Program-made: the position numbers and the translations under genes
Notes under the pieces: model-generated
What the model was told of the DNA's origin: nothing
Databases searched by the model: none
What the model saw: the letters and a program-made list of their open reading frames with translations, nothing else
Shown: piece by piece, positions 16,215 through 29,324 of the stretch
Layout: each line of letters begins with the position of its first letter
Numbering within the stretch: the first letter of the stretch is position 1
NCBI RefSeq assembly: GCF_016901035.1
Contig: NZ_JAFEUF010000057.1
Span: 447 to 33,750, forward strand
Reading direction: 5' to 3'
Origin: Streptomyces durocortorensis
GTDB lineage: Bacteria > Actinomycetota > Actinomycetes > Streptomycetales > Streptomycetaceae
Length of the DNA stretch: 33,304 bases

Positions 16215-19200
16215 CTATGCCAATGCCTCCGCCATGTCCTCGGCCTGCTTCAGGACGCGCTCGATCGCCGCGGGCTGCTTGTCCGGCGGATAGCCGTACT
16301 TACGCAGCAGTCGGAGTACGCGGGCCATGATCCGGTCCCGGGCCTGCTCCTTCAGCTTCCAGTCGACCGTGACGTCGTTGCGGATCTGCTCGTACAGCTC
16401 GTGCGCGATCCGCGCGAGGATCGAGTCCTCCATCTGCTCGACCGCCGAGGGGTCGGCCGCCAGCGCGTCGTAGAAGGCCAGCTCGTCCTCCGTCAGGCCC
16501 AGCGTCTTGGCACGGCCACGGTCGGCGGACACCTCCTGCGCCAGCTCCACAAGGAACTTCATGAACTCGGCCGCTGTCAGAAGCCCGTTCGTGTACCGGT
16601 TCATCGCGGCCCGCACCCGGTTGGTGAAGGTCTCCTGCCGAGTGAGGTTGCGGGGATGCGCGTCCCTGATCTCCTTGAGCAACGCCCGTCGCAGGGCCTC
16701 GATGGCAAGGTTCGGATGCTTGGACGCGCGGAGCTTCGGCAGCATGGACTCGTCCAGATGCGACAGGTCCGGCTTGGTGAGCCCGGCCGCGTCGTAGATG
16801 TCCACGACCCCGTCGGCCGCGACGACCGAGGCATTGAGCTGGGCGATCAGCAACTCCACGTCCGCCGCCGTCGCGGTGCCCTGCTCCTCCCGCTCCTCAG
16901 CGGTGTACTTCTCCCGTGACTTGCTCACCGTCTCGAAGAACCGGATGTCGGGCAGCAGGTCCTGCACACGCGGATCGGTCGGACAGAGCGAGAACGCCTG
17001 GCGGAGCAGACCCGCGTGGTACATGAACCGCTGTCTACGCGTCGCCTGCTCCGGCTCCAGACCCGGCTCCGGCGTGATCAGGAACTCCAGTACCTCGGTG
17101 AGCGCCTCCCGGTAGGCGCGTGAACCGCCCGCCGCGAGCGCCCGGCGCCACGGACAACCGTGCAGGACGTCAACGATCTGCTGATGGCTCTCCCGCACCA
17201 ACTGGACGGCCCCCGCAAGGTCGGCACCCAGCATGGGGTTAGCCTGATCCTGCTCGGAGTACTCGGCGAGGGCTTCCTTGATCTCCCCTATGACTCCCTG
17301 GAAGTCGACGACCAGCCCGGAAGGCTTCCCCGGCCAGGTGCGGTTGACGCGGGCGATGGCCTGCATGAGGGCGGCTCCACGCATGCGCTTGTCCAGGTAG
17401 AGCGTGTGCAGAGGCGGCGCGTCGAAGCCGGTCAGCCACAGGGACTGGACGATGACCAACTCCAGTTCGTCGTCGGCATCGGTCACCCGATCCTGGATCT
17501 TCTTCAGCCGGGTGGACGTGCGAACGTAGTCGGCGACCTCCTCACCGTCCGTGGCGGCGTTGCCGGTGAAGACCACGCGGATACGCCCGGTGTCGTCAGT
17601 CAGCAGCTGCGACTTCGGGTCACGCGCCCCGGCCCAGTCAGGGCGAAGCCGGACCACCTCCTCGAACAGCCGGGCAGCGATCGCTCGGGAGGCACAGACG
17701 ACCATGCCCTTACCCGGCCGGCCGGTCAGTTTCCTCATCTCCGTACTGCGCGCGTCCCAGTGGTCCAGGAGGTGCTCGGCCAGCTCGCGGACGCGTCCGG
17801 ACGACCCGATCAGGTCCTCGTACCGCCCGAACTGCTGACGGGCGGCACGCTTCTCGCCCTCGGACAGCCCCTCGATCAGGCCCTCCGCGCGGGCGTCGAG
17901 ATCGTCGAGGTCGGCATTCTCGATGAGCTCGACCTGGACGAGGTGGGGCTCGTAGAAGACGGGCACGGTCGCCCCGTCGTCCACGGCCTGGGTGAGGTCG
18001 TAGGTGTGGATGTTCGCGCCGAACACACCTTGCGTGCTGCCCGTGCTGTTGTTGATGGGAGTGCCGGTGAAAGCGATGAAAGTGGCGTTCGGGAGGGCAT
18101 CGCGCAGGTTGCGGGCGTAGCCGTCGATGAAGTCGTAGTGGCTGCGGTGGGCCTCGTCGACAACGACGATCACATCACGGCGCGGCGAAATCTGCGGGTG
18201 CCGGACACCAGCCCTACGCTCGGCCTCGGTCAGCCGGAACTTCTGCAGCGTGGCGAACACGACTCCGCCGATGCTTGTCGGGCTGTTCAGCAGTTCGCGC
18301 AGCTGTCCGGCGTCGGCGGCGGTCTGCGGCTCCTCCTTGACCCTCTTACGGAGGGTGTCACTGGCGGTGAACGTCCGGAACAGCTGATCGTCGAGGTCGA
18401 TCCGGTCGGTCAGCATGACGAACGTCGGGCTGGACAGTTCGGGCTTCGATGCCGCCTTTCCCACGTAGAAGAGCATCTCCTCGCTCTTCCCAGCCCCCTG
18501 CGTGTGCCAGACGACACCCGCCCTGCCGTCCGTCGCGAGGGCCGACTCGGTGGCGCGGACGGCCGCGTTCACGGCGATGTACTGGTGTGCCTTGGCAAGC
18601 TTGACCGTGTTGACGTCGCCAGACTTCTCGGCGGAGTACGAGAGGAAGTGCCCGATCAGGTCCAGGAGACGGGCCGGCTCGAAGGCCCCGTACAGCATGC
18701 GCTCCAGGGCCCGCCCGTCCTGGCGTTCGGACTTCCGCAGCATGCGGTCGTCGTCATCGGCGTGCCAGGGGGCCATGTGCTGCCAGGGCGTGAACGGCGT
18801 GCCCATACGGGCGGTGAGCCCGTCCGAGGCGAGCATCACGAGGAACGTGGCAAACGTGCCGGTCTGCTTCAGCTCGCGCCGATAACCCTGGAGCTGGTCG
18901 TAGGCGGTGCGAGCACTGTCGTTGCTGTCGGCCTTCTTCAGCTCGATGACGGCGAGCGGAAGCCCGTTCACATACAGGACGATGTCGAATATGAACGTCC
19001 GGTCCTTGACGCTCTTGACCCGGACCTGGCTGGCGGCCACCAGATCGTTGGCGTGTGGATCGCCGAAGTCGACGGGCCGGATGACGGAGTGCCGTGTATC
19101 GCCAGTGACCGGGTCCTCGTACGGGACGGAGACACCGCTGATCAGCCGCTCGTAGAACCGGTGGTTCTCGCGCAGGTCGTGCTGGGTGAGCTGAGTGAGG

Positions 19201-19448
19201 AGCAGGGACACGGCGTCGTCGGCCACGCTCTCGGGCAGCTGCGGGTAGCGACGCCGAATCGCCTTACGGAGGTTCGGGTACAGGACGAGGTCCCCCCACC
19301 CCTGACGCACCCCGTACGAGGGCCCCAACTCGGCCCCGGGCACATGCAGCCACCCGATTTCGCCGAGCACCTCCAGGGCGTGCAGCTCCAACTCCTGCTC
19401 GGTGAGCCGGTCTATGGGGGGCTCACCGTTTGGGTTGGCCTTCCTCAT
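16215..19448 (-). CDS. hsdR: Type I restriction enzyme, R subunit
   Basis: This is the motor-nuclease subunit that, with HsdM and HsdS, moves along unmodified DNA using ATP and cuts it. The product is 1077 residues, which is full length. The N-terminal PD-(D/E)xK nuclease has D155 and the pair E169-x-K171 (in VIELKK). The helicase part has Walker A GAGKS at 318-322, DEAH at 431-434 and motif III FTGTP at 460-464, and later helicase motifs including RVNRTWPGK. A helical C-terminus that docks on the methylase follows. All catalytic residues I can check are present, so it looks active. ATG 19448 overlaps the hsdS stop as ATGA and has GAGGAGG upstream. The frame is open further upstream, but that part lies inside hsdS. 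It is the last gene of the defence operon. Confidence 0.96.
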   Translation of the reverse strand: MRKANPNGEPPIDRLTEQELELHALEVLGEIGWLHVPGAELGPSYGVRQGWGDLVLYPNLRKAIRRRYPQLPESVADDAVSLLLTQLTQHDLRENHRFYERLISGVSVPYEDPVTGDTRHSVIRPVDFGDPHANDLVAASQVRVKSVKDRTFIFDIVLYVNGLPLAVIELKKADSNDSARTAYDQLQGYRRELKQTGTFATFLVMLASDGLTARMGTPFTPWQHMAPWHADDDDRMLRKSERQDGRALERMLYGAFEPARLLDLIGHFLSYSAEKSGDVNTVKLAKAHQYIAVNAAVRATESALATDGRAGVVWHTQGAGKSEEMLFYVGKAASKPELSSPTFVMLTDRIDLDDQLFRTFTASDTLRKRVKEEPQTAADAGQLRELLNSPTSIGGVVFATLQKFRLTEAERRAGVRHPQISPRRDVIVVVDEAHRSHYDFIDGYARNLRDALPNATFIAFTGTPINNSTGSTQGVFGANIHTYDLTQAVDDGATVPVFYEPHLVQVELIENADLDDLDARAEGLIEGLSEGEKRAARQQFGRYEDLIGSSGRVRELAEHLLDHWDARSTEMRKLTGRPGKGMVVCASRAIAARLFEEVVRLRPDWAGARDPKSQLLTDDTGRIRVVFTGNAATDGEEVADYVRTSTRLKKIQDRVTDADDELELVIVQSLWLTGFDAPPLHTLYLDKRMRGAALMQAIARVNRTWPGKPSGLVVDFQGVIGEIKEALAEYSEQDQANPMLGADLAGAVQLVRESHQQIVDVLHGCPWRRALAAGGSRAYREALTEVLEFLITPEPGLEPEQATRRQRFMYHAGLLRQAFSLCPTDPRVQDLLPDIRFFETVSKSREKYTAEEREEQGTATAADVELLIAQLNASVVAADGVVDIYDAAGLTKPDLSHLDESMLPKLRASKHPNLAIEALRRALLKEIRDAHPRNLTRQETFTNRVRAAMNRYTNGLLTAAEFMKFLVELAQEVSADRGRAKTLGLTEDELAFYDALAADPSAVEQMEDSILARIAHELYEQIRNDVTVDWKLKEQARDRIMARVLRLLRKYGYPPDKQPAAIERVLKQAEDMAEALA

Positions 19449-20677
19449 ACGGCCTCCTCTACAACACGGACGGCGTCCTTGACGCGGAGCTTCCCGGTGA
19501 CGAGTTGGGGGAGGAGGGTGTCGCGGAGGTCGGCGAGGGTGCGGTTCTCGAGCCTGGCTGCCTCCGCGCGGGCGTGCAACGGCGCACACCGCCGGTCGAA
19601 CGCAGCTAGCGCCGACTCTGTGGGCAGCGAGATCCTGAGCGAGCGGATATCGCTGAGACTGAGGTAATCCGCCATGTCGGTCTGGCCCTTCATCCCGGCA
19701 GCCTGACGCCAGAAATCCTGGCCTCGCAGCCAGTGGAACAGGTAGGGAGCAGAGAACGGCGCATCACCCACAGGCCGGAAGAAGCAAACCTGGGGGCTGT
19801 ATACGAACTCGGCGTCGTGAGGGGAAATCATCGCCACTCGACCGACGGTCCCCTTGGTCGTGAGGACAACATCTCCGGCGCGAGAGGTCTTTTGCCTCAT
19901 CGCCGACCGAAACTCTTCCCTCACATGATCACCAAAGGACGGGGCGATAGTCCCGTCGCCTACTTCTGCAACCCGCAGGATGGGAAGCCCCGGTGTTCCG
20001 TGCTCAGCCGCTTTGGTTCTGTATCCATCACCGAACCGCAACGAACCTTCGGCCATGAGCTGACCGAGAGTCGCGTGCCGCGCTGAGCCCTCCTGCTGGA
20101 CAGCAACTCTATAGAAGGCGTCGCCCAGATCCAACCCTGTTGCGCAAAGCCGCTCGTTGAAAGCGGTCTTGTCGTCCAGGGCACCGAGAACCTCCGCGAC
20201 AGCCCGCTGATCACTAATTTGCGGGAGACGAATTTGAGCCCTGAGAAGCTCAGTTTGCCTAATTCCAAGTACCGTCGTACCAGATGCCCTAGCATTCAGC
20301 TGCCCCTGCATATAAGACGACTGAAGAGAATAATAGAGGAAGCGCCCATCAAGAACTCCTCGCCTCCCTCGTAGGCCGAAAACTCTCTGCCCCAAACAAA
20401 GAGGATCGTTTGTTTCAATCAGCGCACACTGCCCTAGCGGGGCCTCGGAAGTGAGGATTACATCATTCTTTTGCGTTGAGTTTGGCATCCATTTCTCGTA
20501 GAGCGCAAAAGGCACCCGCCTGGCTTCCACCAACGGGATCCGCTTCCCACTCTTGACCAGCAGAGCCGACACGACGGGAACCCCTTCGTCTGTGAATTCA
20601 CCACCGAGTTTTTTGGGGGTCTTACCACGGTGGTCAATCAACGTTTCCAAGACTTCACCCAAAGGAAACTCACGCAT
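19445..20677 (-). CDS. hsdS: Type I restriction enzyme, specificity subunit
   Basis: HsdS recognises the two halves of a split DNA target and guides both methylation and cutting. The 410-residue protein has two target-recognition domains. Each is followed by a conserved helix: ASGTTVLGIRQTELLRAQIRLPQISDQRAVAEVLGALDDKTAFNERL after the first, and SLSDIRSLRISLPTE then ENRTLADLRDTLLPQLVTGKLRV after the second. I chose ATG 20677, which overlaps the hsdM stop as TGATG and has GGAGG five bases upstream. GTG 20680 is the alternative. The stretch coding for the first recognition domain is clearly less GC-rich than its neighbours, which fits exchange of specificity domains. The recognition sequence cannot be predicted by eye. 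Confidence 0.93.
   Translation of the reverse strand: MREFPLGEVLETLIDHRGKTPKKLGGEFTDEGVPVVSALLVKSGKRIPLVEARRVPFALYEKWMPNSTQKNDVILTSEAPLGQCALIETNDPLCLGQRVFGLRGRRGVLDGRFLYYSLQSSYMQGQLNARASGTTVLGIRQTELLRAQIRLPQISDQRAVAEVLGALDDKTAFNERLCATGLDLGDAFYRVAVQQEGSARHATLGQLMAEGSLRFGDGYRTKAAEHGTPGLPILRVAEVGDGTIAPSFGDHVREEFRSAMRQKTSRAGDVVLTTKGTVGRVAMISPHDAEFVYSPQVCFFRPVGDAPFSAPYLFHWLRGQDFWRQAAGMKGQTDMADYLSLSDIRSLRISLPTESALAAFDRRCAPLHARAEAARLENRTLADLRDTLLPQLVTGKLRVKDAVRVVEEAV
20150..20640. other. Low-GC segment within hsdS
   Basis: About 490 bases coding for the N-terminal recognition domain contain many A/T-rich words (for example GATCGTTTGTTTC and CATCATTCTTTTGCG) and codons ending in A or T. These are rare in the surrounding genes. 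The boundary is estimated by eye. It suggests that this domain was acquired from another source. Confidence 0.6.
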
Positions 20678-22287
20678 CACACCCTCCCCAGCTGCTCGTC
20701 CACAGCCTTCGCCAAGCGCTCCGACTCCGCGAACTGCTCCCGCAACAACGCACTCAGCCGCGCGATCTTCGCCTCCACCGGCTCCGCGTCCGGATCGGCC
20801 TCCGCCTCCGCCGTACCCACGTACCGCCCGGGCGTCAGCACGAAGTCATGCTCCGCGACCGTCTCCAGCCCCACGCTCGCGCAGAACCCGGGCACATCCT
20901 CATACGCCGCCGCGCCCGCCACGCCCCGCCACGCCCGCACCGTGTCGCCGACGCGGCCGACGATCTCCTCCGGGGTCAACTCCTTCAGCGTGCGGTTCTT
21001 CATCACGCCGAACTCGCGCGCGTCGATGAACAGGACCTCGCCCTTACGCCCCCGCACCCACGCCGAGTGCCGGCCCTTCCCCTCCGCCAGGAACCACAGG
21101 CACGCCGGAATCTGCGTCGACCGGAACAGCTGTCCGGGCAGCGCGATCATGCACATCACCAGGTCGTCCTCGACCATGCCCCGGCGGATGTCACCCTCGC
21201 CGGACTGCTTGCTGCTCATCGAGCCGTTGGCCAGGACGACGCCCGCCCGGCCGCTCGGCGCGAGCTTGCTGATCATGTGCTGGAGCCACGCGTAGTTCGC
21301 GTTGCCGACGGGCGGAGCCCCGTACGCCCAGCGCCGGTCCATGCCGAGCATCTCCCCGCCCCAGTCGGAGATGTTGAAGGGCGGGTTGGCCATGACCACG
21401 TCCGCCTTCAGAGCCGGATGCTGGTCGTTGCGGAAGGTGTCGGCCGGCTCGTCGCCGAGGTTGGCCTCGACGCCATGGATGGCCAGGTTCATGTGGGCCA
21501 GCTGCCAGGTGGTCTGGTTGAGTTCCTGCCCGTACACCGCGACGTTCAGCGGGTTGCCGCCATGCGACTCGATGAACTTCTCCGCCTGCACGAACATCCC
21601 GCCCGACCCGCACGCCGGGTCGTAGACCCGCTCGCCCGGCTGCGGCTCCAGGACCTCCACCAGCAGCTGCACCACGCTCTCCGGGGTGAAGTACTCCCCG
21701 CCCTTGCGGCCCTCCTTGAGCGCGAACTCGGCCAGGAAGTACTCGTACACCTCCCCCATGATGTCCCGCGCGCCCTTACGGTGGCCGTCCTCACCCAGCT
21801 GTTCCTGGAAAGCGAGCCGGTCCAGGAGCCTGATCAATCCGACAAGGCGTTCCTCATCGACCCGTCCACTGGCGTAGATCTTCGGCAGGGTCTTCTTCAA
21901 CGCCGGGTTCTGCGCCTCGATCGCCAGCATCGCCGCGTCGATCGCCTCACCGACGGTCTGGCCCTCCACCGTCGTGCCCGCCCGTTCGAGAACGGCCTCC
22001 CAGCGCGCGGCCTGGGGCACGTAGAAGATGCCGGCGCCGGTGTACTCGCGTCGCTCCTCCAGCGTGCTGAGGATGTCGGCCTCGCTCCAGCCGCCCTCTT
22101 CCCTCAGCTCGGCCTCCAGCTGCGCGCGCTTCTCACTCATCGCGGCCGAGACGTATTTGAGGAAGACAAGGCCCAGCACGAAATGCTTGTAGGCGGCAGC
22201 GTCCAGACTTCCGCGCAGCTTGTCCGCGGACTGCCACAGGATCTGCTTCATGTCGGCGGGCTCGGTCTTCTTCTTACGGGGTGGCAC
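20677..22287 (-). CDS. hsdM: Type I restriction enzyme, methylase subunit
   Basis: HsdM transfers a methyl group from S-adenosylmethionine to N6 of adenine in the target chosen by HsdS, protecting host DNA. The 536-residue protein has the N-terminal HsdM helical domain (MKQILWQSADKLRGSLDAAAYKHF from about residue 13). The SAM-binding motif I is DPACGSGGMF at about 223-232 and the catalytic motif IV NPPF is at 301-304. I chose GTG 22287 because the family's basic start (PPRKKKTEPAD) follows it. The open frame further upstream lies in the preceding methylase gene. The ribosome site is weak. The gap to the preceding gene is 49 bases, the only real spacer in the operon, so a separate internal promoter cannot be excluded. 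Confidence 0.95.
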   Translation of the reverse strand: MPPRKKKTEPADMKQILWQSADKLRGSLDAAAYKHFVLGLVFLKYVSAAMSEKRAQLEAELREEGGWSEADILSTLEERREYTGAGIFYVPQAARWEAVLERAGTTVEGQTVGEAIDAAMLAIEAQNPALKKTLPKIYASGRVDEERLVGLIRLLDRLAFQEQLGEDGHRKGARDIMGEVYEYFLAEFALKEGRKGGEYFTPESVVQLLVEVLEPQPGERVYDPACGSGGMFVQAEKFIESHGGNPLNVAVYGQELNQTTWQLAHMNLAIHGVEANLGDEPADTFRNDQHPALKADVVMANPPFNISDWGGEMLGMDRRWAYGAPPVGNANYAWLQHMISKLAPSGRAGVVLANGSMSSKQSGEGDIRRGMVEDDLVMCMIALPGQLFRSTQIPACLWFLAEGKGRHSAWVRGRKGEVLFIDAREFGVMKNRTLKELTPEEIVGRVGDTVRAWRGVAGAAAYEDVPGFCASVGLETVAEHDFVLTPGRYVGTAEAEADPDAEPVEAKIARLSALLREQFAESERLAKAVDEQLGRV

Positions 22288-22336
22288 GGGGCACTCGTTT
22301 CTCTCGTGGTTCAAGGGGATGCAGCGATGACCCTCG

Positions 22337-24472
22337 TCAGGGCCCCGAGTTCCGATCAGGCCTTTTGCGCAGCCGCAGGTCACCGTCCGCGACACCCGCC
22401 GCCAGCCGTTCGGCCAGCGTGTCCAGCGCCGACAACTGCCGTCGCACGTCGGCACGGTGGCGCTCCGTCTCGGCCAGGACGGCATCGAGGTCGGCGATCT
22501 CCCCCACCGGCAGCTGTGGCAGATCCATGTCCTTCACGCTCACCCTCCGCACGAGCGATCCGCTCCCACGCTGTTGGTTGCGGGGCGCGGCCAGCAGCCG
22601 GGCCAGTGCGTGAGGGCGCATCCACAGGTTCCCCGGACGGCCCGTCCCGCCCTCCGCCAGGTCCATCAGGTACTTCCGGTAAGCGGCGATGCGCAACCCT
22701 TGCACCGGTGCCAGCAGAACGCAGCCGCCCGCGTCGTCCACCTGCGTGCGGACGCCATGCTCGGTGAGCAGGAAGACATCGCCCTGCTCGGTCATCTGGG
22801 TCTGCGGATAAGCGGCGAGTTCTTCCAGCATGATGCGACGCTGCCCGAGAGGCAGGGCGCCGAGCATCTCCTCACGGCCGATCACCGGTACACCCGCGTC
22901 CCCGATGTCGCTCTCCCTGATGCGGTGACCCGGCAGGAGCCGGAGCTGTCCTGCCCTCAGCTGTCCACCGACCTTGAAATGCTCGGCACGTACCTCCCTT
23001 TTACCGACGCCGAGATCACCGATCCACTGCTTCAGGTGGGGCAGCGCCACATACGCGTTCTGCCGCGCCTCCACCGTGGCCGCGAAATGATCGAGCCCCT
23101 TCTCCGGTGAGGCGAGCCGGTGCGCGGGCAGCAGAGACCGTCCGTCCAACAGATAGGAGCTGCCGGGCCCGGCCGTATCCACCCGCACGCGCTGAGCCTC
23201 CTGCGGCACAGGCGTCGCGGTGCTGCCCAGCAGCCCCACGGTGTTCCGCTGCCAGGCGTCACCCACCCGACGCGCCAGGCGGTCCGCGTCGATCAGCAGC
23301 GTGTGAGGATTCGTAGGCGGGCGCCACGTGCCCCGCAGCACCAGCAATGCGTGCTCGGCACCGGTACGGAAGGTATGGATGCGACGGGGCAACTGGATGA
23401 TCGCTTCCACCGCACCGGACTTGAGCAGGTACTCCCGCATCCGGGTATTGGCCGTCCCTGTCGCGCCACGGGGCCGGGACAGCGTCCAGGAAGGGACGAC
23501 CACAAGGGCCTGCCCGTCCTCCCCCAGACGCCGGACCGCTTCCAGGGCCCACTTCAGCGGACCTTCCTCGTCCCGTTCGTGCTCTCCCGAGGCGTAGGGC
23601 GGGTCGGCCACCACCAGGTCAGCCGGCGGAAACCCCAGCGGGCCCCGGACGGACCCCGAAACCGCGGAGTGCGCCGGGGGCAGACGAACACCGTCCAAAT
23701 CCTCCGGCGTGGGGCATACCAGAATCTCCCCGGCAGACCAGTGGGCAAGCAGCCGGTAATTCAGCACCGTCCGCCGCAAGGCATCGGGCTCCACGGCGGC
23801 CACGTAGTTCTCGCCGTCGTCGGCGTCGAGTGCCAGCAGGACATCCCCGGCCCCCGCACACAGGTTGAGCACGACCACAGGCTTTGCTGCCGACAGAACC
23901 GGCTGTGCGAGGACGTCGATCAGCTCGACGACAGGCAGCGGAGTCGCGTCCATGGCCAGGTCGGACTGAAGGCGTCCGGCCAGCTTGAGCACCGCTTCGG
24001 CCGCGGCACCGGTGCTGCCCAGCTCTCCGATCAATTCGCGTACGGTACGCAGCAACTCCGTGTCAGCGGCGTCGAAATCAGCCAGCAGGCTTACAGGCAG
24101 GCTCTCTTCTGCACTGCCTCCGCCCTCCCCCTCCATAGCAACGACGGCCAGCGCCCTGACAATCAGCTCGTCAGGTCCCAGCATCCCGTGCCCGAGCATG
24201 ACCAACCGCCGCGACCGGAGCCCGTCACGGAAACGTTCGCCGTACGTCGGCAGAGTGCCGTCGGGGTGCGGTTCACCGTCGGGCACAGGCCGCTCGTCCA
24301 GCCAGCGCCCGATCTCCTCCGCGTCGAACAACGGCTTGCTCTCGGAGCCACCGACCGGCTCGGGGAAGGAAGCGTGCCGCCGCCGCCAGTTACTGACCGT
24401 GGGCCGGCCAACCTCGGCGAGCTCCTTGATCTCGCCGAGGGTGACCGGCTCGTACCGCCGCCGCTCCGTCAC
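22337..24472 (-). CDS. HTH-adenine methylase with HsdS-like C-terminus
   Basis: The 711-residue protein combines three regions. An N-terminal helix-turn-helix lies at residues 11-60 (TLGEIKELAEVGRPTVSNWR, then LFDAEEIGRWL). The N6-adenine methylase core has motif I NLCAGAGD at 203-210 and motif IV DPPY at 290-293. A C-terminal part ends in SVKDMDLPQLPVGEIADLDAVL plus a long helix, as in HsdS. It therefore looks like a fused methylase and specificity subunit, with its own putative target-recognition region at about 430-640. HsdM in the same operon has NPPF, so these are two different enzymes. There is no nuclease domain. The GTG start overlaps the abi stop as GTGA. It may modify DNA alone, work with HsdR, or regulate the operon through its HTH. 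None of these is proven. Confidence 0.85.
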   Translation of the reverse strand: MTERRRYEPVTLGEIKELAEVGRPTVSNWRRRHASFPEPVGGSESKPLFDAEEIGRWLDERPVPDGEPHPDGTLPTYGERFRDGLRSRRLVMLGHGMLGPDELIVRALAVVAMEGEGGGSAEESLPVSLLADFDAADTELLRTVRELIGELGSTGAAAEAVLKLAGRLQSDLAMDATPLPVVELIDVLAQPVLSAAKPVVVLNLCAGAGDVLLALDADDGENYVAAVEPDALRRTVLNYRLLAHWSAGEILVCPTPEDLDGVRLPPAHSAVSGSVRGPLGFPPADLVVADPPYASGEHERDEEGPLKWALEAVRRLGEDGQALVVVPSWTLSRPRGATGTANTRMREYLLKSGAVEAIIQLPRRIHTFRTGAEHALLVLRGTWRPPTNPHTLLIDADRLARRVGDAWQRNTVGLLGSTATPVPQEAQRVRVDTAGPGSSYLLDGRSLLPAHRLASPEKGLDHFAATVEARQNAYVALPHLKQWIGDLGVGKREVRAEHFKVGGQLRAGQLRLLPGHRIRESDIGDAGVPVIGREEMLGALPLGQRRIMLEELAAYPQTQMTEQGDVFLLTEHGVRTQVDDAGGCVLLAPVQGLRIAAYRKYLMDLAEGGTGRPGNLWMRPHALARLLAAPRNQQRGSGSLVRRVSVKDMDLPQLPVGEIADLDAVLAETERHRADVRRQLSALDTLAERLAAGVADGDLRLRKRPDRNSGP

Positions 24473-25137
24473 AGCACAATCTCCTCCTCGCCCGAGAGGA
24501 CCCGGGCCTTGCGGGCCAGGACCGCAGGAACCTGGCTGTACTTCTCGTGACGCGCTGCCAGCGCAGGAGCGACGAGTGCCGTCAACTCGACGGCCGTACG
24601 GAAGTCCTCCTCCAAGCGGCGGTGGCAGACCCGCTCGTGGTGGGCGATGCGGTTGCGCAGCGTCCGCATGATCCCCAACCGGTCATGAAGGTTCTGCCGC
24701 CCCACGCCGTTGAAGCAGTGACGCAGCGCCGGGTTCCAGTACCTCATGTCGTAGTTGCCGTGCCCGCCCTTGCTGACCAGGCTCACCCAGAAGCCGAACG
24801 ACATCGACGCAACGACGTCGCTCGGGCTGAACTCCCCTCGCTCGGCCAGCTCGTCCTCGGCACCGCGGATCTTCCGCATGCCCCAGCTGTTGGGCTCCGC
24901 CCTCCGCAGGTTCCACCAGTCGCTGCGGCCGAACTTGCCGGTGAGCTGGCGGTGCACCCTGTTCCGCAGGCTCACCTCCAGATCCCGCAGCGGGCTGTAC
25001 AGCGCACGCGCCACCTCCGCGTCCCAGGCGTACAGCCGCAAGGCCACCACGACGTCGCCATGGCACTCCTCCAGGAACGGCAGAAACCGCTCCGGGGAGA
25101 TCGCAGCCACTAACTGCTCCTCGCTGCTCTCCGCCAT
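24469..25137 (-). CDS. Abi-like protein with HEPN-type motif
   Basis: This 222-residue protein resembles the Abi_2/AbiD/AbiF group of abortive-infection proteins. It is soluble and helical. Residues 50-62 contain LRDLEVSLRNRVH and residues 159-170 contain TLRNRIAHHERV. The latter gives the R-x4-H pattern (R161, H166) of HEPN RNases. Such proteins usually stop growth by cutting RNA, and the target here is unknown. I chose ATG 25137, preceded by GGAAGGA about nine bases upstream. A GTG at 25146 is also possible. It is the first gene of the defence operon and overlaps the second methylase gene by GTGA. Co-expression with a restriction system suggests a back-up suicide role like PrrC, which is inference. 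Confidence 0.8.
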   Translation of the reverse strand: MAESSEEQLVAAISPERFLPFLEECHGDVVVALRLYAWDAEVARALYSPLRDLEVSLRNRVHRQLTGKFGRSDWWNLRRAEPNSWGMRKIRGAEDELAERGEFSPSDVVASMSFGFWVSLVSKGGHGNYDMRYWNPALRHCFNGVGRQNLHDRLGIMRTLRNRIAHHERVCHRRLEEDFRTAVELTALVAPALAARHEKYSQVPAVLARKARVLSGEEEIVL

Positions 25138-25230
25138 CGCCCGCACTTCCTTCCCTCCCGCCACCGTGTTACGGTTCCGGGGTACGCCTTGGAGTCCTGT
25201 CACCGCTTGCTTCGCCGCATAGCACACAGC

Positions 25231-25246
25231 CCAGGGCAGAGCCTGG
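25231..25246 (-). ncRNA. Small hairpin in the abi leader
   Basis: CCAGG (25231-25235) and CCTGG (25242-25246) flank six bases. It directly follows the long hairpin on the transcript and might stack on it. It is weak alone and is listed because of its position. Confidence 0.35.
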
Positions 25247-25294
25247 TGATACGCCCTGTACTGCCCACCTCAATTAGGCAGTGCAGGGCATCAC
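25246..25294 (-). ncRNA. Long hairpin in the leader of the abi operon
   Basis: GCCCTGTACTGCC (25253-25265) and GGCAGTGCAGGGC (25277-25289) pair with one wobble around an 11-base loop. After a two-base bulge (25251-25252), GTGAT (25246-25250) and ATCAC (25290-25294) extend the stem to 18 pairs. No U-run follows on the minus strand, so it is not a normal terminator. It could be a structured RNA working with the Abi protein, an attenuator or an operator. Confidence 0.5.
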
Positions 25295-25344
25295 TGTTCT
25301 TGCCGTGAGAGCCGAGCTGACGCTCCCCTCACCGCGATGAGATC

Positions 25345-25373
25345 AATCTAGCGCTTCCTTCCCCAGATGTGAA
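25345..25373 (-). promoter_or_regulatory. Promoter of the abi-methylase-hsd operon
   Basis: On the minus strand TTCACA (25373-25368) and TAGATT (25350-25345) are separated by exactly 17 bases. This is a good match to a sigma-70/HrdB promoter, with predicted start near 25338 and a leader of about 200 bases before the abi ATG. It is the only convincing promoter seen for the operon. Confidence 0.55.
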
Positions 25374-25392
25374 GCCGCGCGAGCTAGCACTT

Positions 25393-25412
25393 GTGAGAAG
25401 CGGGGTTCTCAC
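25393..25412. promoter_or_regulatory. Palindrome upstream of the abi promoter
   Basis: GTGAGAA (25393-25399) and TTCTCAC (25406-25412) flank six bases. The centre is about 30 bases upstream of the -35. This is a suitable place for a dimeric HTH regulator, perhaps the HTH-methylase itself. It lacks a U-run and so does not look like a terminator. Confidence 0.45.
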
Positions 25413-25443
25413 TGGTGACGCGACGCTCTATAGGTACATGAAA

Positions 25444-25472
25444 AGCGGGCCACGGCTCCACCGTGACCCGCT
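25444..25472 (-). terminator. Terminator of hemB
   Basis: A 12-bp stem (arms 25444-25455 and 25461-25472, one wobble or mismatch) with a 5-base loop is followed on the minus strand by TTTT. It lies 15 bases after the hemB stop. It separates hemB from the defence operon, which is transcribed in the same direction. Confidence 0.8.
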
Positions 25473-25486
25473 CCAGTCGAACCAGG

Positions 25487-26497
25487 TCAGCCCTGCCCGG
25501 CGTCGCGCCCCAGCCACTGGGCCGCCTCGGTCGCCCAGTAGGTGAGGATCATCTGCGCCCCGGCCCGCCGGATCCCGGTCAGGCTCTCCAGGATCGCCTT
25601 GTCCCGGTCGATCCAGCCCTTCTCGGCGGCGGCCTCGATCATCGCGTACTCGCCGCTGATCTGGTACGCCGCGACCGGCACGTCCGCGACCTCCGCAACC
25701 TTGGCGAGGATGTCCAGATACGGTCCGGCGGGCTTCACCATGACCATGTCCGCACCCTCCGCCAGGTCCAGCGCCAGCTCCCGCAGCGACTCGCGGGCGT
25801 TGGCCGGGTCCTGCTGGTAGGTCTTGCGGTCACCGGTCAGCGAGGATCCGACGGCCTCGCGGAAGGGGCCGTAGAAGGCGGAGCTGTACTTCACGGTGTA
25901 GGCGAGGATCGACACGTCCTCGTGGCCGGTCTGGTCCAGGGCGTCCCGGATCACGCCGACCTGGCCGTCCATCATGCCGCTGGGGCCCACCACATGGGCC
26001 CCGGCGTCCGCCTGGACCTGGGCCATCTCCGCGTACCGCTCCAGCGTCGCGTCGTTGTCCACCCGGCCGTCCGCCGTCAGGACCCCGCAGTGGCCGTGGT
26101 CGGTGAACTCGTCCAGACACAGGTCCGACATGACGATGAGGTCGTCGCCGACCTCCTCGCGCACCGCGCGCAGACCGAGCTGGAGGATCCCGTCCGGGTC
26201 GGTTCCCACGGTCCCCCGGGCGTCCTTCTTCCCGTCCTCCGGCACCCCGAAGAGCATGATCCCCGAGACCCCGGCCGAGACCGCCTCGACGGCCGCCTTC
26301 CGCAGGGTGTCCAGGGTGTGCTGGTACACGCCGGGCATGGCCGAGACGGCGACCGGGGCGTCGATGCCCTCCCGGACGAACGCGGGGAGGATCAGGTTCG
26401 CGGGGTCGAGCCGTGTCTCGGCGACCATCCGCCGCATCGTCGGGGTCGTCCGCAGCCGCCGGGGGCGGGAGCCGGGGAAGTTTGCGTACGCAGTCAT
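25487..26497 (-). CDS. hemB: Porphobilinogen synthase (delta-aminolevulinate dehydratase)
   Basis: HemB joins two molecules of 5-aminolevulinate to porphobilinogen, the second step of tetrapyrrole synthesis. The 336-residue protein has the two active-site lysines K203 ([14 protein letters not shown]) and K255 ([12 protein letters not shown]). The metal segment [14 protein letters not shown] keeps cysteines at 127 and 137 but has Asp at 129 where the zinc enzymes have Cys, so metal use may be mixed. I chose ATG 26497, since [13 protein letters not shown] is the start of similarity and a purine-rich GAAGG abuts it. It is separated from the rex-hemACD operon by a strong terminator, so it probably has its own promoter, which I cannot identify. 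Confidence 0.96.
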
Positions 26498-26623
26498 CCT
26501 TCGACGATAGACCCGTGCGCCCCACGGTCTTACCGACACCTGCGCCGGGAAAGGCACAGGCGCAGGCTGTTGACAGGCCCCTGCGGGCGGCCCGGAAAAG
26601 ACGCCGGCCCCGGAAAGGACAGC

Positions 26624-26651
26624 GGGCCCGGCCGCCGAAGCGACCGGGCCC
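26624..26651 (-). terminator. UUCG-loop terminator of the rex-hemACD operon
   Basis: On the minus strand GGGCCCGG and CCGGGCCC enclose CGC-TTCG-GCG with one U-G pair. This gives a continuous 12-pair stem capped by a stable UUCG loop. It starts 20 bases after the hemD stop and is followed by a short pyrimidine stretch (CCTTTCC). Confidence 0.75.
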
Positions 26652-26670
26652 ACTCACCCTCGTACTGCCG

Positions 26671-28341
26671 TTACGTCGTCGTCCGACGTCTGCGCGCCCC
26701 CGGGCGCCGCTCGCTCGGCCGGGTCACCGGGTCACCGGCCTCCTTCGCCGCGTCCCGGCGCTGCGCGCCGAAGGCGGCGAGCGCCTCGGCGAGCTTGTGC
26801 ACCGACGGCTCCGGGGACAGCACGTCGACCCGCAGGCCGTGCTCCTCGGCGGTCTTCGCGGTGGCCGGGCCGATACACGCGATGACGGTCACGTTGTGCG
26901 GCTTGCCCGCGATGCCGACCAGGTTGCGCACCGTCGAGGACGAGGTGAACAGGACCGCGTCGAAGCCGCCGCCCTTGATCGCCTCGCGGGTGTCGGCCGG
27001 CGGCGGCGAGGCGCGGACCGTGCGGTACGCGGTGACGTCGTCGACCTCCCAGCCCAGCTCGATGAGCCCGGCCACCAGGGTCTCGGTGGCGATGTCGGCG
27101 CGCGGCAGGAACACCCGGTCGATCGGGTCGAAGACCGGATCGTAGGGCGGCCAGTCCTCCAGCAGCCCGGCGGCGGACTGCTCGCCGGAGGGCACCAGGT
27201 CCGGCTTGACGCCGAAGTCGATCAGCGCGGCGGCGGTCTGCTCGCCGACCGCGGCGACCTTGATCCCGGCGAAGGCGCGGGCGTCGAGACCGTACTCCTC
27301 GAACTTCTCCCGGACTGCCTTGACGGCGTTCACGCTGGTGAAGGCGATCCACTCGTAGCGTCCGGTGACCAGGCCCTTGACCGCGCGCTCCATCTGCTGG
27401 GGCGTACGCGGCGGCTCGACGGCGATCGTCGGGACCTCGTGCGGCACCGCACCGTAGGAACGCAGCTGGTCGGAGAGCGACGCGGCCTGCTCCTTGGTAC
27501 GCGGGACGAGCACCTTCCAGCCGAACATCGGCTTGGACTCGAACCACGCGAGCTGGTCGCGCTGGGCGGCGGAGCTGCGCTCTCCGACCACGGCTATGAC
27601 CGGCCGGTGCCCCTCCGGCGAGGGGAGCACCTTGGCCTGCTTGAGGGTCTGGGCGATCGTCCCGAGGGTCGCCGTCCAGGTGCGCTGGCGGGTGGTGGTG
27701 CCCGCGATCGTCACGGTGAGCGGGGTGTCGGGCTTGCGGCCCGCCGAGACCAGCTCACCGGCGGCGGCCGCCACCGAGTCGAGCGTGGTGGAGACGACGG
27801 CGGTGGCGTCGCTCGCGCCGACCTCGCTCCAGCACCGGTCTGAGGCGGTACGGGCGTCGACGAAACGGACGTCCGCACCCTGCGCGTCACGCAGCGGCAC
27901 CCCGGCGTACGCGGGCACGCCGACGGCGTTCGCGATGCCCGGGACCACCTCGAAGGGCACCCCGGCGGCGGCACACGCGAGCATCTCCGCGCCGGCGTCG
28001 CCGTCGAGCCCCGGGTCGCCCGCGACCGCACGGACCACCCGCCTGCCGCCCTTCGCGGCCTCCATGACAAGATTGGCCGCATCCCTGAGAACGGGTACAC
28101 CGGCGGCTGTTGACGAGACGTCAACAACCGTCAGCTCAGGCGTGCTCACACCTTCCCGCGCATGGCTGCGAACGACGTCGAGCACATCGGGCTCGGCGAC
28201 AAGGACGTCCGCGCTCGCGAGCGCTTCGACAGCGCGCAGAGTCAGCAGTCCCGGGTCGCCGGGACCGGCGCCGAGGAAGGTGACCTGGCCTTGGGCGGAC
28301 AGGACCGGAAAGTCGGATGCGGCGGGGCCGGTGGGGCTCAA
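26671..28341 (-). CDS. hemD: Fused uroporphyrinogen-III methylase-like/uroporphyrinogen-III synthase
   Basis: The 556-residue protein has two domains. Residues about 17-250 resemble SUMT/CobA, with VTFLGAGPGDPGLLTLRAVEAL and VVPGIANAVGVPAYAGVP. The region from about 280 on is HemD, which closes hydroxymethylbilane to uroporphyrinogen III (VLVPRTKEQAASLSDQLRSYG, IAFTSVNAVKAVREKF, DAVLFTSSSTVRNLV). Fusions of this kind are common in actinobacteria. The methylase half has APRD-type residues after VPLRD rather than the usual THR, so its activity is less sure than that of the synthase. I chose TTG 28341. It overlaps the hemC stop as TTGA and has GGGGGAG eight bases upstream. It is the last gene of rex-hemACD. 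Confidence 0.92.
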   Translation of the reverse strand: MSPTGPAASDFPVLSAQGQVTFLGAGPGDPGLLTLRAVEALASADVLVAEPDVLDVVRSHAREGVSTPELTVVDVSSTAAGVPVLRDAANLVMEAAKGGRRVVRAVAGDPGLDGDAGAEMLACAAAGVPFEVVPGIANAVGVPAYAGVPLRDAQGADVRFVDARTASDRCWSEVGASDATAVVSTTLDSVAAAAGELVSAGRKPDTPLTVTIAGTTTRQRTWTATLGTIAQTLKQAKVLPSPEGHRPVIAVVGERSSAAQRDQLAWFESKPMFGWKVLVPRTKEQAASLSDQLRSYGAVPHEVPTIAVEPPRTPQQMERAVKGLVTGRYEWIAFTSVNAVKAVREKFEEYGLDARAFAGIKVAAVGEQTAAALIDFGVKPDLVPSGEQSAAGLLEDWPPYDPVFDPIDRVFLPRADIATETLVAGLIELGWEVDDVTAYRTVRASPPPADTREAIKGGGFDAVLFTSSSTVRNLVGIAGKPHNVTVIACIGPATAKTAEEHGLRVDVLSPEPSVHKLAEALAAFGAQRRDAAKEAGDPVTRPSERRPGARRRRTTT

Positions 28342-29324
28342 AGTGCTCGCTCCCCCATAAGACCGGCCGCACCCTTGGCGAGCATCTCGGACGCGAGTTC
28401 GCGACCGAGGGCCGCCGCGTCGTCGTGCGACGTGGGGACGGGACCGGTGGTGGACAGCTGTACGAGCGAGGAACCGTCGGTGGTACCGACGACTCCGCGC
28501 AGGCGCAGTTCGTTGACAACCTGTCCGTCGACCAGGAGGTCGGCCAGCGCACCCACAGGTGCGGAGCAGCCGGCCTCCAGGGCGGCGAGCAGGGCACGCT
28601 CGGCGGTCACGGCGACCCGGGTGTACGGGTCGTCGAGCTCGGCGAGCGCGGCGGCGAGGTCGGCGCCGGACGCGGCGCACTCGATCGCCAGTGCTCCCTG
28701 GCCGGGAGCGGGCAGGACGGTGTCGACCGGCAGGAAGTCGGTCACCTCACCGCTCCGGCCGAGACGGCTGAGCCCGGCGGCGGCGAGGACCACCGCGTCG
28801 AGCTTGCCGTCCCGCACGAACCCGATCCGCGTGTCGACGTTGCCCCGGATGGGGACGGTCTCGATCCGCAGTCCGTGGGAGCGTGCGTACGCGTTGAGCT
28901 GCGCCATCCGGCGCGGCGAACCGGTACCGATGCGGGCGCCGTCGGGCAGCTGCTCGAAGGTCAGCCCGTCCCGGGCGACGAGCGCGTCGCGCGGGTCCTC
29001 GCGCTGCGGCACGGCCGCCAGCACGAGGTCGTCGGGCTGGCTGGTCGGCAGGTCCTTGAGCGAGTGGACGGCGAAGTCCACCTCGCCCCGCAGCAGCGCC
29101 TCGCGCAGGGCGGCGACGAAGACGCCGGTGCCGCCGATCTGCGCCAGGTGCTCGCGGGAGACGTCCCCGTACGTGGTGATCTCGACGAGCTCGACGGCGC
29201 GCCCGGTCACCTCGCGGACCGCCTCGGCGACGAGCCCGGACTGGGCCATGGCGAGCTTGGAGCGCCGGGTGCCCAGCCGGAGCGGCGCGGCGCTCCGCGC
29301 GTCCGGCGATGAGTTGTCGGTCAT
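28338..29324 (-). CDS. hemC: Hydroxymethylbilane synthase (porphobilinogen deaminase)
   Basis: HemC joins four porphobilinogens into the linear tetrapyrrole hydroxymethylbilane. The 328-residue enzyme begins with LRLGTRRSKLAMAQ. It has HSLKDLPT at 87-94, the Arg-rich stretch GTGSPRRMAQL, and the dipyrromethane-cofactor cysteine C253 (in EAGCSAPVGAL). The ATG at 29324 overlaps the hemA stop by four bases (ATGA), and the stop overlaps the TTG of the next gene. It should be controlled with rex and hemA by Rex. Confidence 0.96.
   Translation of the reverse strand: MTDNSSPDARSAAPLRLGTRRSKLAMAQSGLVAEAVREVTGRAVELVEITTYGDVSREHLAQIGGTGVFVAALREALLRGEVDFAVHSLKDLPTSQPDDLVLAAVPQREDPRDALVARDGLTFEQLPDGARIGTGSPRRMAQLNAYARSHGLRIETVPIRGNVDTRIGFVRDGKLDAVVLAAAGLSRLGRSGEVTDFLPVDTVLPAPGQGALAIECAASGADLAAALAELDDPYTRVAVTAERALLAALEAGCSAPVGALADLLVDGQVVNELRLRGVVGTTDGSSLVQLSTTGPVPTSHDDAAALGRELASEMLAKGAAGLMGERAL

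Follow-up and report, generated by a model that had tools for sequence, protein, structure and literature searches.

A type I restriction-modification operon of Streptomyces with an AbiF-like HEPN protein, a candidate upstream RNA partner and a putative regulatory methylase

The stretch of DNA analysed here, called the window, comprises 33,304 nucleotides of Streptomyces durocortorensis (NZ_JAFEUF010000057.1:447-33,750) and contains five consecutive genes: abi, a gene for a helix-turn-helix (HTH) methylase (HTHMT), hsdM, hsdS and hsdR (Table 1). Abi is assigned to Pfam family Abi_2 at 27.9 bits (cut-off 25.6), HTHMT weakly to N6_Mtase at 28.2 bits (cut-off 20.4), HsdM to HsdM_N and N6_Mtase (346.9 bits), HsdS to Methylase_S, and HsdR to HSDR_N, SWI2_SNF2 and T1RH-like_C. 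The motifs GAGKS, DEAH and D...ELK are present in HsdR, DPACGSG and NPPF in HsdM, and CAGAGD and DPPY in HTHMT. With HsdM, HsdS and an HsdR that has both motor and nuclease motifs, the locus holds a type I restriction-modification (R-M) system. An earlier note on this DNA had described five genes with three overlaps and one 49-base gap, and the coordinates agree: the end of abi lies within the GTG of HTHMT (GTGA), hsdM and hsdS overlap at TGATG, hsdS and hsdR at ATGA, and the gap separates the HTHMT stop from the GTG that fits hsdM. The roughly 275 bases upstream of abi, on which the note was silent, contain a palindrome, a putative promoter and a structured RNA of about 80 nucleotides.

Table 1. 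Features of the five-gene operon and its upstream region, with positions in the window.
Feature	Position	Strand	Description
abi	24469-25137	minus	ATG start; Abi_2 HEPN protein, 222 amino acids, RNRIAHH (Rx4H) motif, AbiF-like predicted fold
HTHMT	22337-24472	minus	GTG start; 711 amino acids; HTH, N6-methyltransferase and S-like C-terminal domain
hsdM	20677 to about 22287	minus	type I modification subunit; GTG start inferred
hsdS	19445-20677	minus	ATG start; specificity subunit whose recognition domains differ strongly between most loci
hsdR	16215-19448	minus	ATG start; motor/nuclease subunit
RNA core	25164-25243	minus	candidate antitoxin RNA for Abi, with an outer stem of 7 bp, an asymmetric bulge and an inner stem of 3 bp; covariation
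Hairpin 5' of RNA core	25246-25294	minus	GCCCTGCACTGCC...GGCAGTACAGGGC; in minimum-energy structure
Putative promoter TTCACA-17-TAGATT	25345-25373	minus	20 bases past palindrome; 1 found, 0.0 expected by shuffles
Operator-like palindrome TGAGAA-N6-TTCTCA	25394-25411		only exact copy in 7.96-Mb genome

Loci of the five-gene type were collected from 246 genomes of the same genus and from a search of named genomes, which gave 13 loci, all in Streptomyces and two already in the 246-genome set; 18 distinct loci were obtained in all. HTHMT is found at an identity of at least 57% in 7 of the 246 genomes, and the five genes have identical order in 7/7. Among all loci, abi, HTHMT and hsdM are adjacent in 18/18, and hsdS and hsdR follow in 17/18, which places the gene order beyond chance and bears out the earlier note's view of abi and the methylase as companions of hsdMSR. 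The exception is L078, where hsdS and hsdR were not found and the hsdM match is cut; in L077 abi is frameshifted, and this sequence was left out of alignment A5. It is highly improbable that a common type I R-M system merely has two unrelated cargo genes as accidental neighbours, since the order is kept in L079, where identity to the window goes down to 39% (Abi) and 52% (HTHMT), since the flanking genes differ among the five-gene loci, and since the palindrome is common to 18/18. Such an accident would fit the occurrence of the abi family without R-M relatives or with other methylases, and of HsdM relatives without the pair. A close HsdM is present in 19 genomes: the 7 with HsdM at 70% identity or more all carry the abi-HTHMT pair, and in the 12 with HsdM at 52-59% the searches gave no such pair (neighbourhoods were read in 2 only). 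Two of these 12 genomes have a distant HTHMT and no abi. The link from HsdM to the pair is looser than the reverse.

Of the 27 abi matches in the 246 genomes, 7 belong to operons of the five-gene type and 9 have a different HTH-methylase next to them (L046-L054). The remaining 11 include L055, L058 and L028, near hsdM or hsdR matches, and 8 with no relative of the window's R-M proteins nearby. Plasmids gave no HTHMT match at E<=1e-20, and phages gave five distant Abi matches, all below 33% identity.

Abi falls into the Abi_2 (AbiD/F) HEPN family, scoring over the Pfam cut-off and having the Rx4-6H motif as RNRIAHH, and R161, N162 and H166 are invariant across 13 Abi sequences. The top Foldseek match of an AlphaFold2 model of Abi (13 sequences; pLDDT 87) among 350,542 chains is 8vz6_A, the PbAbiF dimer with its non-coding RNA (probability 1.00, TM 0.65), the next-best match having a probability of 0.14. 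The E value for 8vz6 is, however, 4.6e-3. VIA-align superposes the model on 8vz6 with Z 12.6 and a root-mean-square deviation of 3.2 over 203/222 residues, a score at which, by the aligner's own caution (Z below about 13 in helical bundles), only a common arrangement may be reflected. The margin over the following row (5.4) argues for a true match, as does the coverage, and several further rows are HEPN toxins. Comparison of the predicted model with the solved structure thus points to the AbiF fold, and the RNase is probably a dimer. A phmmer search of Abi against PDB sequences returned only a chance-level match (E 0.63), and its best PADLOC match is PD-T4-5 (46.6 bits). PrrC and RloC were considered as identities and rejected, the protein having 222 amino acids, only Abi_2 in Pfam and no ABC ATPase fusion.

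The upstream regions of seven five-gene loci share invariant blocks, though their Abi proteins are mostly 47-58% identical, and other abi genes are also preceded by the RNA element, with changed letters. Alignment A3 comprises 30 sequences (18 from five-gene loci, 9 of the L046-L054 class, and L055, L058 and L028); 8 of 38 abi upstream sequences that did not fit the patterns were left out (L056, L057, L059-L064), and L049 was added by hand. With no structure given, RNAalifold finds 13 pairs in A3, 6 of them with kept changes on both sides. With the structure specified, 88.5% of cells are paired, versus 33-49% with partners slid, and double-change cells number 38 versus 14.7 in shuffles (0/500 as high), distributed over 8 pairs (6/500 shuffles as high). 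Independent sequences aligned to the model have 83.8% of cells paired (3/500 shuffles as high) and 20 double-change cells versus 10.7 shuffled (0/500 as high). In the hairpin 5' of the core, the letters of L041, L043 and L044 differ yet still pair.

R1, a covariance model of the RNA trained on the A3 sequences, has 19 matches at E<=4.2e-12 in the 246 genomes, each directly 5' of an abi gene from the training set; beyond these there are 35 weak rows, from E 4.9e-4 to 0.1. Class-wide, the untrained test set consists of 29 abi loci, which are nearly the best-scoring of 76 abi matches besides the window. R1 matches 18/18 of the closer loci (L112-L129) at E<=1.4e-11 (16 of these belong to other genera) and 4/11 of the distant ones (L130-L140) at E<=1.2e-3, in all cases 5' of abi and on the same strand. 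For the 8 untrained Streptomyces abi genes, those whose upstream sequences are not in A3, it gives 3 weak matches. A class-wide scan with R1 yields 30 matches at E<=2.7e-6, 19 by an abi gene and 1 by an abi fragment, and 9 weak matches (E 3.6e-4 to 0.0083); of the 8 weak ones fetched (all but G430), one (G246) adjoins abi.

The Rfam models give nothing on the window at gathering score. At E<=10, seven abi loci and the window leader have only weak Rfam matches far below the cut-offs, none of them abiF (RF03085), and RF03085 is also without a match at this place in the whole-genome scan. Elsewhere in the same genome RF03085 matches G000:C600:5672-5707 (L171:2673-2708) at 47.1 bits (cut-off 37), and the match closely precedes a different Abi_2 gene (116.7 bits). 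With this match as positive control, assignment of the operon's RNA to Rfam abiF was rejected; the organism thus carries two different RNA-Abi pairs. The RNA appears to form a separate family, matched by no Rfam model here and distributed over many actinobacterial genera. No paper on this RNA family or this operon was found, as judged by title and start of abstract. As in type III toxin-antitoxin systems, a structured RNA lies directly upstream of the toxin gene, and it probably restrains the toxin.

Another possibility is a PrrC-like guard, in which HsdMSR and/or HTHMT silence the HEPN RNase and the RNA does no more than regulate abi in cis as its leader. In the case of PrrC, the associated type I R-M enzyme keeps the RNase inactive (PMC3710099), RCd22 of Clostridioides difficile also acts on abiF expression (PMC12373285), and Abi relatives stand beside type I genes in other arrangements (L058, L055). 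The guard is nevertheless unlikely, because the RNA is also found 5' of abi genes without detected window-type R-M relatives nearby (L056, L057, L060) and precedes many abi genes of other genera, so that the association with the RNA is more constant than that with any R-M component. Attenuation by a leader is likewise unsupported, no terminator-like site having been found in 25100-25500.

With one mismatch allowed, the palindrome is found in 18/18 five-gene loci, 16 of them having an exact copy and 2 a copy that deviates at a single base. Each of these loci (386 kb in total) has one copy, about 224-309 bases ahead of abi, and the palindrome is found in 0/53 other loci, many of which are short. 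A promoter-like pair after it reaches 8/12 matches in 10/18 loci, versus 6.9% of shuffles; some of these pairs are weak. The palindrome ends 8-10 or 20-21 bases from the -35 element, two spacings that are about one helical turn apart. The distance between a binding site and the -35 element sets the face of the helix on which a bound protein lies, and this spacing suggests that a palindrome-bound factor contacts RNA polymerase. The arms are extended by 4-14 complementary bases in L069, L071, L072, L073, L075, L077, L080 and L081.

HTHMT has an N-terminal HTH and an S-like C-terminus, both recognised by eye, and a divergent methylase (D/SPPY) in which we take motifs I and IV to be those known from methylases in general. 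The earlier note's statement that all motifs are intact holds in the window locus and fails in relatives, where motif IV varies (SPPY in 3/14 rows of alignment A6, DPPF in L044 in alignment A2) and motif I is degenerate in L079. The S-like C-terminus is the most constant part of HTHMT, with a median identity to the window of 65% (17 loci). In contrast, recognition domain 1 of HsdS has no detectable match to the window in 9/17 loci, and recognition domain 2 has a median identity of 12% over 17 loci (88% in one). A constant C-terminal domain next to a varying HsdS suggests that HTHMT reads something invariant, for which the unique palindrome would be the obvious candidate. The divergent methylase, the constant C-domain and the unique palindrome are more readily reconciled with a dedicated regulator than with another general methylase, and HTHMT probably regulates the operon through the palindrome. 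The earlier proposal that the extra pair are functional parts of one system therefore survives in that the pair is a constant part of the operon, and is not supported in its "modification by two enzymes", which agrees less well with the same three features.

It is conceivable but doubtful that HTHMT is itself a modification enzyme in addition to HsdM, or joins HsdM as another M subunit (M1M2S), with the palindrome left to another regulator. Motif I and D/SPPY are largely kept, the gene is next to hsdM in 18/18 loci, and the best structural matches of the HTHMT model are PacII M1M2S first and other type I M subunits (E 8.4e-14), a resemblance that allows for a second M subunit; a profile search gives the type I-like methylase 7vru (E 1.1e-5). 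The model is, however, poor in the C-terminal half (mean pLDDT 63, too poor for use), and the S-like C-terminus stays constant though the paired HsdS usually changes. Distant HTHMT relatives without abi are found beside hsdMSR in L065:8992-11157 and L066:4383-6464. By eye they seem to be without the PPY catalytic motif at the corresponding place, which suggests a non-catalytic role.

It is reasonably probable that the locus is a two-layer defence operon, combining type I R-M with an AbiF-like HEPN RNase that has its own RNA antitoxin, under regulation by HTHMT through the palindrome. In the first layer, an ordinary type I enzyme (HsdM, HsdS, HsdR) would restrict and modify DNA. In the second, the AbiF-like RNase, probably dimeric, would be kept inactive by the RNA of about 80 nucleotides transcribed ahead of abi, RNA and Abi forming a type III-like toxin-antitoxin pair with an RNA family other than Rfam abiF. 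A single promoter would drive the RNA, abi, HTHMT and hsdMSR, and HTHMT would bind, and perhaps methylate, the palindrome just upstream of the -35 element and so set expression. Should a phage shut off host transcription or disable R-M, the RNA pool or the HTHMT control would fail; the RNA would fall, the RNase would be freed and growth would stop. Gene order, palindrome, promoter pattern, RNA covariation and RNA-abi linkage are read from sequence, and the fold match is predicted; from these we infer RNA-protein binding and neutralisation, binding of HTHMT to the palindrome, the single transcript, the trigger and the RNA targets. The "back-up RNA-cutting layer" of the earlier note is compatible with the HEPN motif and the AbiF-like fold.

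Several observations pull the other way. Further pair types are not above shuffles, either in A3 (498/500 as high) or in the independent sequences of A4, and pairing in the outermost helix is weak, at 77% in A3 and 61% in A4. The window leader is not unusually stable (z -1.02 for the whole region), and the outer stem of the window RNA has a mismatch. Most genus-wide R1 matches were training sequences; R1 misses 5/8 untrained Streptomyces abi genes and has no match in 6/11 distant abi loci, with E 0.12 in a seventh. Of the 30 class-wide matches, 10 have no abi within up to 7 kb on each side (less in two contigs), so that the RNA can exist without the toxin. As to regulation, the palindrome arms extend symmetrically with letters that differ by locus, a pattern left unexplained by a simple operator; HTHMT might also have many methylation sites, and another protein could bind the palindrome.

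The abi-less matches, L142-L151 (= L160-L169), are orphan RNAs or remnants.

Several known systems share parts with this operon. RCd22, the RNA upstream of abiF in C. difficile, binds AbiF directly and thereby neutralises it (PMC12373285), and a PbAbiF-AbiFr pair from Prevotellaceae has been described (PMC12737573). Like the AbiF-abiF RNA (RF03085) pairs, the operon has a HEPN protein of the same predicted fold with an RNA directly upstream on the same strand, and the two RNAs have in common an outer stem, an asymmetric internal loop with a longer 3' side and a 3-bp inner stem. The operon differs in its RNA sequence and in linking the pair with an HTH-methylase and hsdMSR. PrrC in the EcoprrI type I operon is also a HEPN RNase encoded with hsdMSR and a possible second layer (PMC3710099); the operon's Abi, in contrast, is without the ABC ATPase domain, and the operon has an additional HTH-methylase and an upstream RNA. 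The linkage of HEPN proteins with R-M, Abi2 genes in R-M operons and the analogy to PrrC were proposed earlier (PMC3710099). The same work describes Abi_2 as "embedded in R-M operons" (Anantharaman 2013), which agrees in family and neighbourhood type; the accessible part of its text mentions neither an RNA partner nor a second HTH-methylase. PD-T4-5 of Escherichia coli is a distant AbiF/D relative giving Abi defence, and unlike the operon's Abi it is plasmid-borne, with no R-M partner described in the part of the article consulted (PMC9519451).

In the case of MADS, HTHMT is weakly similar to mad2 (27 bits) and mad1 (14.9 bits), and HsdS to mad5. Identity with MADS was rejected, as HsdM scores 61.9 bits against a cut-off of 720 (MAD2) and HsdS 29 against one of 400 (MAD5); none of the MADS NCBIfam models is listed for HTHMT or Abi.

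The operon would thus seem to unite known parts in a new combination, in which the RNA partner is of a new family, the upstream site is a dedicated one and the HTH-methylase is constant. AbiF-ncRNA (non-coding RNA) pairs are proposed ancestors of Cas13 (PMC12373285, PMC12737573). If the two-layer reading is true, it links an RNA-gated toxin directly with R-M at the genetic level, makes the back-up of R-M by a HEPN toxin testable with simple deletions and with an RNA and an operator that are both defined, and adds a separate RNA family for AbiF-type pairs across many actinobacterial genera.

Related layouts are found in Streptomyces. Nine loci (L046-L054, e.g. L049:5781-10363) consist of the RNA, abi and an HTH-N6-methylase, with no hsdR match within up to 20 kb. 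All nine have a different conserved upstream site, in which a TGC-rich stretch comes after GGTTAACA, and a half HsdS follows in L046, L048, L049, L051, L052 and L053 (6/6 of those tested among the nine). Of the flanks tested, that of L048 has a THAP4-like heme-binding gene and that of L049 one of FUR type; similar-sized genes stand elsewhere. In L055:9501-15876, RNA and abi are followed by an S-like gene just below the Pfam cut-off, an AAA_21 ATPase gene and hsdM, and in L058:1739-10421 by a half HsdS gene, hsdM and hsdR. Only tentatively can it be proposed that the DNA-modification systems of actinobacteria have an RNA-gated RNase of the AbiF type as their effector. In L046-L054 the RNase would then replace the restriction nuclease, methylation status or methylase occupancy would control the RNA-antitoxin switch, and the five-gene operon would be the version that keeps hsdR.

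Heme-synthesis genes adjoin 7/18 five-gene loci (window, L040, L041, L069-L072) and were not seen in the other 11/18 within the fetched stretch on the abi side. In the window and in L040 the operon comes after hemB of a heme-synthesis cluster; the flanking stretch of the window (25487-29324) contains, by Pfam, the heme-biosynthesis genes hemB, hemD with a methylase domain, and hemC.

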